Both the position numbers and the translations under genes were made by a program. Below are positions 14,186-30,695 of a DNA stretch of 56,851 nucleotides, one piece after another. The notes beneath the pieces are model-generated. The model made no database searches. It was not told where the DNA came from and saw only the letters and a program-made list of their open reading frames with translations. The first letter of the stretch is position 1; every line of letters starts with the position of its first letter. Origin of the DNA: Planctomycetota bacterium. GTDB lineage: Bacteria; Planctomycetota; Planctomycetia; Gemmatales; Gemmataceae. The stretch is from positions 1 through 56,851 of the forward strand of contig JACPPF010000094.1 of NCBI GenBank assembly GCA_016191165.1, in the 5' to 3' direction.

Positions 14186-14265
14186 AAGCCCCGGGGTGAG
14201 TGTAGCGAACCCCTGGGATCGGTGTTCAGTATCCCAGGGGTTCGCTGCGCTCACCCCTGGGCTTC
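14186..14265. repeat. Paired type A palindromes
   Basis: Two 34-bp units in opposite orientation (14186-14219 and 14231-14264) with an 11-bp spacer. Each unit is itself a hairpin (CCC-GGGGT...ACCCCTGGG), so the pair can fold as two small hairpins or one long cruciform. It fills most of the space between the release-factor-like and oxidoreductase genes. Confidence 0.88.
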
Positions 14266-17037: not shown

Positions 17038-17075
17038 CGTTTAGCGCTCGCCTGGCGCCGCGCGAGCGCTAAACG
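17038..17075. repeat. Type B palindrome carrying a stop codon
   Basis: CGTTTAGCGCTCGC...GCGAGCGCTAAACG inverted repeat between the convergent isomerase and acetyltransferase genes. On the minus strand the TAG of its TTTAGC edge is the acetyltransferase stop (17069-17071). Confidence 0.88.
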
Positions 17076-17602
17076 TCAAGCACCGATTCCATCACCTGGT
17101 ATCCGGTCATCGCCATTCCCATCGACCGGTAGGTCGCCTGCGCCCCGGCATTGTCATACTCGACGTAGAGCCGAACGCCGATGACCCGCGGCGTGCGTCT
17201 TGCTTCGTTGACCACGTTTTCGTAGAGCAGGCGAAACACTCCCTGGCGCCGCGCTTCCTTCGCGACGTAAACGCTCTGGATCCACCAGAAGGCGCCGTTG
17301 CGCCAATCGCTCCATTCCACGGTGACGCCGAGTTGACCGACGATGTCTCCCGTCTCCCCTTGCGGGAAAGGCGTAAGCGGCCTAGCACCCCTCTCCCCTT
17401 GTGGGAGAGGGGTCGGCGGTGAGGGGTGAATTTCCGCCACGAAATATCGCCCCTTGTTCGGGTCGCACAACATCGCGACAACGCCGGCTTTCAGAATGGC
17501 CAGATCGAGATGTTTGTCCTCGGTCTCCAGCGCCAGCAGGCGATTGAATTCGCAGATCACGTCGGCGTCGGATGGGCTGGCGGCGCGAATTGTGAGGTTC
17601 AT
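17069..17602 (-). CDS. GNAT acetyltransferase with repeat-derived in-frame insertion
   Basis: 177 residues from ATG 17602 (MNLTIRAASPSDADVICEFN). GNAT fold: beta1-alpha1, the strand GRYFVAEI, GQLGVTVEWSDWRNG, the acetyl-CoA region IQSVYVAKEARRQGVFRLLYE (a variant of the usual R/QxxGxG/A), and VRLYVEYDNAGAQATYRSMG near the end. Residues about 59-83 (HPSPPTPLPQGERGARPLTP and onward) do not belong to the fold. They are encoded by a palindromic element of about 75 bp that keeps the frame. The insertion falls in the loop between two strands, so the enzyme may still work. The stop codon is in the type B repeat. Substrate unknown. Confidence 0.85.
   Translation of the reverse strand: MNLTIRAASPSDADVICEFNRLLALETEDKHLDLAILKAGVVAMLCDPNKGRYFVAEIHPSPPTPLPQGERGARPLTPFPQGETGDIVGQLGVTVEWSDWRNGAFWWIQSVYVAKEARRQGVFRLLYENVVNEARRTPRVIGVRLYVEYDNAGAQATYRSMGMAMTGYQVMESVLDV
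17347..17430. repeat. Type F palindromic element inside a coding sequence
   Basis: An 11-bp stem (ACCCCTCTCCC 17387-17397 with GGGAGAGGGGT 17403-17413), plus a degenerate half copy at 17353-17373, lies wholly within the acetyltransferase frame. A related element (CCCCTCTCCCTCCGGGAGAG) lies between genes at 30650. Confidence 0.88.
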
Positions 17603-17630
17603 GAATCCCCCTCGGTTCATACAATTCCCA

Positions 17631-17706
17631 AAGCCCAGGGGTGAGCGCAGCGAACCCCTGGGATAAAACCTGATCCCGGCGGTTCGCTGCGCTCACCCCC
17701 GGGCCT
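17631..17706. repeat. Paired type A palindromes
   Basis: Units at 17631-17664 and 17673-17706 in opposite orientation, 8-bp spacer. They fill the divergent gap between the acetyltransferase gene and apt, ending 10 bp before the apt start, so they would be in or next to its leader. Confidence 0.88.
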
Positions 17707-18238: not shown

Positions 18239-18280
18239 TTCGTTTAGCGCCCGCGCGGCGCCACGCGGGCGCTAAACGAA
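18239..18280. repeat. Type B palindrome
   Basis: TTCGTTTAGCGCCCGCG...CGCGGGCGCTAAACGAA, a near-perfect 17-bp-arm hairpin between apt and hisI. It ends 15 bp before the hisI ATG and is the best-preserved copy of this type. Confidence 0.9.
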
Positions 18281-22796: not shown

Positions 22797-22841
22797 CATT
22801 CGTTTAGCGCCCGCATTGCGGTCTGCGGGCGCTAAACGAGG
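22797..22841. repeat. Type B palindrome
   Basis: ATTCGTTTAGCGCCCGC...GCGGGCGCTAAACGAG in the gap after the dehydrogenase gene. Confidence 0.85.
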
Positions 22842-30640: not shown

Positions 30641-30648
30641 CATGACTC

Positions 30649-30695
30649 CCCTCTCCCTCCGGGAGAGGGGTTGGGGGGTGAGGGTGAGGCAGCCG
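30649..30695. repeat. Type F palindromic element
   Basis: CCCCTCTCCCTCCGGGAGAG...GGGTGAGGG, the intergenic relative of the element found inside the acetyltransferase gene at 17347. Confidence 0.8.

Follow-up and report, generated by a model that had tools for sequence, protein, structure and literature searches.

In-frame insertion of a dispersed palindromic repeat in a planctomycete acetyltransferase gene and the association of the repeat with DUF559 genes

The window analyzed here is a stretch of 56,851 nucleotides from the draft genome (G000) of a planctomycete of the family Gemmataceae, and the gene of interest encodes a GNAT-family acetyltransferase (Table 1). In the analysis, the genome was placed among the planctomycetes by its gene content (PSCyt1, DUF1549/1553 and DUF1501 genes). 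Its open reading frame of 183 residues extends over 17069-17620 on the minus strand and is open from 17620, but homology begins at the methionine at 17602. Both the profile and the fold place the protein in the GNAT family, the best structural match of its AlphaFold model being 3dsb_A (Z 21.6, rmsd 1.8, 152 residues). The GNAT motifs are conserved, the frame is intact and the sequence on both sides of the insert is that of an ordinary GNAT protein. The insert itself, residues 64-91 (segment IHPSPPTPLPQGERGARPLTPFPQGETG), consists of two direct copies of a palindromic repeat. Since the native loop of the relatives is about 4 residues long, the insertion adds a net 25 residues (75 nt) and the frame is kept. 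The first-pass annotation had described about 25 residues interrupting the protein, formed by a hairpin with an 11-bp stem and a degenerate second copy and related to an intergenic element near 30650; all of these elements were found, the insert within 1 base of where it had been placed. When the insert DNA was folded as a single strand, 0 of 200 shuffled sequences equalled its fold.

Table 1. Features of the window discussed in the text
Feature	Coordinates	Strand	Remarks
GNAT-family acetyltransferase gene with insert	17069..17602	-	Pfam Acetyltransf_1 E=9.7e-11; PDB 3dsb E=5e-34
In-frame insert, two direct repeat copies, GNAT residues 64-91	17348..17431	-	Net +25 aa relative to relatives
Intact hairpin ACCCCTCTCCC-ACAAG-GGGAGAGGGGT	17387..17413	-	11-bp perfect stem, 5-nt loop, 23-nt-core subtype
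Conserved asymmetric repeat tail CCCCTCACCGCCGA (consensus CCCCTCACCCCCRRC)	17413..17426	-	Gives orientation; 84 aligned copies
Degenerate second hairpin copy, direct orientation	17350..17372	-	39-nt period (13 codons)
Palindrome of another family, GTTTAGCG...CGCTAAAC	17039..17074	.	Supplies TAG stop of GNAT gene; 66 copies in this genome
Palindrome of a third family, CCCAGGGGTGAGCGCAGCGAACCCCTGGG (CCCAGGGG-TGAGCGCAGCGAA-CCCCTGGG)	17634..17662	.	Just upstream of GNAT gene
Intergenic single copy of the repeat	30647..30669	+	No flanking coding signature in census

The GNAT model had a mean pLDDT of 87, which fell to 56 and 47 over residues 71-90; the insert was modelled as a disordered, low-confidence loop linking strands 58-65 and 92-104. 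Against four congeners the dN/dS of the gene, calculated without the insert and with synonymous sites near saturation, was about 0.13-0.20, which indicates that the gene is under purifying selection while carrying the insert. That the insert is translated, how it folds and that it is neutral remain inferences.

To place the insert among relatives, we used a family panel of 95 genomes, all of them drafts. GNAT matches were obtained in 82 and 30 proteins were aligned; a short native loop was present in all of these except the window protein, two congeners and G070. The 26-residue loop of G070 was considered as a copy of the same repeat and rejected, being neither palindromic nor related. The segment was also absent from 23 orthologues of other groups (Nitrospira, Rhodothermia, Omnitrophota, Proteobacteria, other planctomycetes and an archaeon), and PDB 3dsb_A has 4 residues (62-65) at the place where the window protein has 29. 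The clean gap that had been predicted for orthologues was thus observed, and the segment is not an old loop in so far as no distant orthologue among those aligned carries it. Congeners G061 and G064 harbor a one-copy version of the repeat at the same GNAT residue, so the insertion site is not unique to this species, while the site is empty in G062, G063, G065 and G066. These comparisons confirm that the segment is an in-frame insertion of a palindromic repeat, with a degenerate tandem copy.

Alignment of 84 copies gave the repeat consensus CCCCTCACCCCCRRC-CCCTCTCCC-N3..7-GGGAGAGGG-GAGAA. The stem pattern matched 104 exact hairpins in the 7.23-Mb draft genome against 0 for a reversed-pattern control, hence the hairpin in the GNAT gene is not a chance structure. 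As read off the consensus, five of the six reading frames are free of stops, the only stop lying in the frame across GGGTGAGGG. Copies occur as singles, inverted pairs and direct clusters. The inverted pairs are numerous, and those at short distance on contigs C92, C94, C102, C111, C86, C176 and C182 give an organisation like that of REPINs or BIMEs. The ends of the 84 aligned copies are CCCCTCACC and GGGGAGAA; the copies have no GTAG tag at the base of the stem and no terminal CGTC tetranucleotide. Two to three direct tandem copies with periods of 36-51 nt were seen in several other genes (L119, L088, L098 and L087), suggesting tandem growth in frame after insertion, as in the GNAT gene.

The position of the copies relative to genes was determined in a census of 49 unselected copies, taken in contig order from the list of 104 matches. 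No gene finder was used: a copy was called coding when its frame ran without a stop for 35 codons or more to either side and showed a signature of GC by codon position. About half of the copies (24/49) lay within coding frames. A wider, partly selected set comprised 47 copies in about 34 genes. Many of the genes hit are conserved housekeeping genes, and inserts fall inside single Pfam domains, namely GatB_N, DNA_pol3_alpha, KdpA, Trp_syntA, SelA, Peptidase_M32, AAA_31 (ParA), Acyl-CoA_dh_M, Aminotran_3, HATPase_c, PSCyt2 and DUF1501. Every open frame of the repeat is used as peptide (PSPPTPLPQGERG, PHPQPLSHEGRGE, LTPNPSPTGGEG, LPSPLAGEGxGVRG and LPSPSGRGxGGE), so that the expectation of finding the GNAT peptide in unrelated proteins was met in five reading frames, inside dozens of proteins of this genome. 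No published mention of these peptides in a bacterial context was found in a literature search that left out most subscription journals.

The neighbourhoods of 16 further genes carrying the repeat (100 residues each) were fetched from the congeners and compared. The residue filled in this genome was also filled in at least one congener in MutL, TrpA, ParA, UPF0261, a lactate-racemase-like gene, polyprenyl synthetase and an acetolactate-synthase-like gene. In GatB, DNA polymerase III alpha, GcvPB, SelA, M32 and FBPase the site was empty in all congeners examined. The filler in the congener was often another palindrome: CCCAGGGACGGCCGTCCCTGGG in MutL of G062, GGGCGAGGCTCCTGCCG...CGGCAGGAGCCTCGCCC in ParA of G062 and GTTTAGCG...CGCTAAAC-type palindromes in UPF0261. 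Most of these fillers outfold nearly all shuffled sequences. For the GGGCGAGGCTCCTGCCG...CGGCAGGAGCCTCGCCC and GTTTAGCG...CGCTAAAC families, the copy numbers are 45-69 per strand in G062 and G065 and 52-252 per genome. The fillers are not all repeats, since TrpA of G063 and G066 has a longer loop that is not palindromic. In 62 gene-by-congener comparisons covering 6,155 aligned positions, all length changes of at least 5 residues were at the repeat site and none was found away from it. The filled sites correspond to short variable surface-loop positions in orthologues (YAAA/RAGKN/NAGRN in GatB, ADEP/TDD in ParA, DG/QG in GcvPB), from which we infer that tolerance of the protein, more than targeting of the DNA, decides where copies are found. 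In the acetolactate-synthase-like gene of G061 (L227, contig C315), a repeat with 29 nt between the anchors seems to shift the frame; this may be a recent inactivation or an assembly error.

For the GNAT gene, the order of events was explored with tree tests. The neighbouring genes rejected all topologies in which the empty G062 and G065 are joined (AU p 0.00002-0.007), and so did the GNAT gene (AU p 0.003-0.007). A single clade of carriers opposed to the non-carriers is therefore rejected, and the distribution requires either at least two gains, or one gain followed by at least two exact losses. The repeat copies also differ in subtype, with a 21-nt core in G061 (the dominant form in that genome), whose left arm is in a different reading frame, and a 23-nt core in G000 and G064.

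The genes bracketed by the repeat encode DUF559 proteins. In the genus, each of the seven full-length DUF559 genes is bracketed by this repeat type in inverted orientation, and the tail points inward in all copies where it is legible. The hairpin at L296 is a long-loop variant and that at L291 is diverged; the upstream copy of L297 is too worn to be oriented. With a threshold of at least 45 for the terminal-repeat alignment score, 22 of 34 DUF559 loci of the family were positive, as compared to 0 of 422 control windows (0/82 around other genes and 0/340 across genus sequence). The criterion for a MITE of the DUF559 unit, namely a dispersed repeat of the same kind as the terminal repeat of the unit, is met. 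The plasmid DUF559 genes of Azospirillum lipoferum, Sinorhizobium meliloti and Sphingomonas are also flanked by inverted hairpins, CCCTCTCCC-like or CCTCCCC-like, and those of Deinococcus and Synechocystis show the same arrangement weakly; no inverted hairpins were found at the plasmid DUF559 genes of A. brasilense, Azospirillum TSH58, A. argentinense, Shinella and Methylobacterium. The putative catalytic residues D, ExD and H do not vary among 13 DUF559 proteins, and the profile matches 3hrl (E=8e-34) and the mobile intron protein 3r3p (E=0.0046).

Several observations count against mobilisation of the repeat by DUF559. Nine of the 34 family genes have no terminal repeats, and no DUF559 gene could be detected in G062 and G065 despite 43 and 34 repeats, respectively (strict pattern). 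Across the family, DUF559 was present in 10 of 18 repeat-bearing and 28 of 77 other genomes (strict pattern, full-length genes), which is not a clear co-occurrence. Of the two copies in this genome, one is interrupted by a stop codon and the hairpin beside the other has diverged. Mobilisation by DUF559 is a supported inference and has not been demonstrated; no transposition was seen, nor any target duplication, for which the congeners are too divergent (70-90% protein identity). Two further features of these loci may be mentioned. A CTTGCAA-like motif with ATG or ATGG after it, which may be a recognition element, recurs in the long-loop hairpins flanking DUF559 at L303, L307, L308, L296 and L311, and on S. 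meliloti pSymB (L350) a DUF559 gene lies between nearly identical inverted repeats of about 110 bp that contain the hairpin (score 208), a unit that looks like it moved recently.

Intragenic palindromic repeats are known from other bacteria. The classical ones are the RPEs (PMC10969869, a review), one end of which is tagged with the tetranucleotide CGTC (PMC3733652). Di Nocera et al. (2013) reported intragenic REPs in many genes of the verrucomicrobium Opitutus terrae and of R. conorii, including error-prone DNA polymerase genes, and two Xanthomonas in which recB carries a REP at nearly the same position (PMC3733652); the mobility of REPs is credited to RAYT/TnpA-REP (PMC8266576). Similar to the RPEs, the present repeat consists of in-frame palindromes read as protein in many unrelated genes, with several families per genome. 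It differs in sequence, in its 7-Mb planctomycete host, in coming in units of 12-16 codons that are often tandem, in the DUF559-bracketed units and in having no CGTC tag, so the likeness to Rickettsia palindromic elements proposed in the first-pass annotation stands as an analogy only. With REPs and REPINs ("REPtrons") it shares short G+C-rich hairpins, high copy number, singles and inverted pairs, and intragenic copies; unlike RAYT REPs, it has neither tag and is not associated with the Y1/RAYT genes present, and the gene that it brackets encodes a different nuclease fold. As the GTAG, CGTC and RAYT criteria failed, we did not file the repeat as an RPE or a RAYT REP even if it behaves like both. 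The DUF559 profile matches both the EDxHD (Vsr-like) homing endonucleases (3r3p) and the DUF559 protein 3hrl, but unlike homing endonucleases there is no intron or intein, the gene lying between inverted hairpins. Whereas intragenic REP and RPE repeats were already known, the link with DUF559 and the recurrence of different families at one site, which the intragenic REPs of Di Nocera et al. do not share, appear to be new. A literature search found no link between DUF559 and REPs, but DUF559 papers were covered by title and abstract and most subscription journals lay outside the search. The genome-wide scale, the same-site recurrence in congeners and the DUF559 association go beyond the first-pass annotation.

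The observed in-frame insertion, copy number, coding-frame positions, same-site recurrence and DUF559 bracketing are, in our opinion, probably best explained by a dispersed REP-like repeat inserted in frame at tolerant loops, with DUF559 as the likely source of mobility; the movement by DUF559 and the chemistry of insertion are inferred. The GNAT insert would be a copy of a palindrome that acts as terminal repeat in a very small mobile unit, spreading as single repeats, inverted pairs and direct clusters. We propose that about half of the copies persist within genes because five of the six frames are stop-free and purifying selection purges copies that shift the frame or hit structure. Those that survive would form flexible loops rich in Pro, Gly and Ser at the few turns of each protein that tolerate them. 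The GNAT turn between strands 58-65 and 92-104 would have been filled repeatedly in the genus, with an additional tandem duplication of the copy in this genome. The putative motor is a nuclease of Vsr-like or PD-(D/E)XK-type fold, inferred from the DUF559 genes bracketed by inverted copies. We would more tentatively suggest, without being ready to back it over other outcomes, that the CCCTCTCCC-type hairpins seen in several phyla belong, as non-autonomous ends, to DUF559 (Vsr-like) mobile units and not to HUH elements, and that in these planctomycetes the repeats of DUF559 and those of RAYT compete for a small number of shared tolerant loops and keep adding new loop sequence.

We cannot rule out that the GNAT insert stems from one ancestral event shared by G000, G061 and G064 and precisely lost in G062 and G065, the subtypes arising from later turnover (indels or conversion by other repeat copies). 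The three carriers have the same repeat family, residue and orientation, palindromes are prone to deletion, and two gains would be enough if G000 and G061 alone share an event (topology 3 was not rejected). Nevertheless, this requires that deletion restored the native 4-residue loop at least twice, leaves the different core and left-arm frame of G061 to be accounted for and cannot explain unrelated palindrome families at the same residue in other genes, and we regard it as unlikely. That same-residue insertion reflects specificity for local DNA sequence and not protein tolerance seems less likely still: insertions of different species do fall within a few codons, and yet the sites are common to different palindrome families and are short variable surface loops in orthologues, with the recB case (PMC3733652) as the one comparable case in Di Nocera et al. 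We give very little credit to the idea of a GNAT pseudogene in decay, with the insert as debris. It evolves faster than the neighbouring APRT gene (66% versus 88% identity to G061), but its low dN/dS, intact frame and conserved motifs speak against decay, as does the presence of the repeat in many conserved housekeeping genes.

The repeat might instead be mobilised by HUH transposases (RAYT/TnpA-REP), DUF559 being a passenger or a domesticated repair enzyme in repeat-rich gaps. RAYT-REP is the established model (PMC8266576, PMC3733652), the inverted repeat pairs look like REPINs, and this genome has 11 Y1_Tnp (RAYT/IS200-like) genes. RAYT as partner of the repeat is unsupported, however, as no hairpin of this family was found within about 0.9 kb of any of the 11, most of which are flanked by other inverted palindromes, for example of the CCCAGGG and GTTTAGCC types. 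With the GTAG and CGTC tags missing as well, and DUF559 bracketing seen in several phyla, we consider the HUH explanation doubtful, and DUF559 remains the preferred candidate.

Hairpin repeats are common in bacterial genomes and the spread of most is unexplained, with a candidate enzyme only for RAYT-linked families. DUF559 would be a second, unrelated candidate, and one that can be purified, which makes the question directly testable. Unrelated palindromes at the same residue provide a natural map of insertion tolerance in housekeeping proteins, and the repeat is a concrete case, outside Rickettsia, of selfish DNA turned into protein sequence. For annotation, peptides like PSPPTPLPQGERG or LTPNPSPGGRGE should be taken as a warning of translated repeats.

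Other palindromes deserve mention. Most Y1_Tnp genes of the genus (L073, L079, L080, L082, L084 and others) have their own inverted palindrome on both sides, hence several RAYT-like families coexist in one genome. The GTTTAGCG...CGCTAAAC palindrome has two more copies in the window (18242-18277 and 22802-22837) and 52-252 per genome in the genus. A second copy of the CCCAGGGG-TGAGCGCAGCGAA-CCCCTGGG palindrome is at 14233-14261, and the CCCAGGG palindromes flanking the Y1_Tnp gene L073 are related to it.
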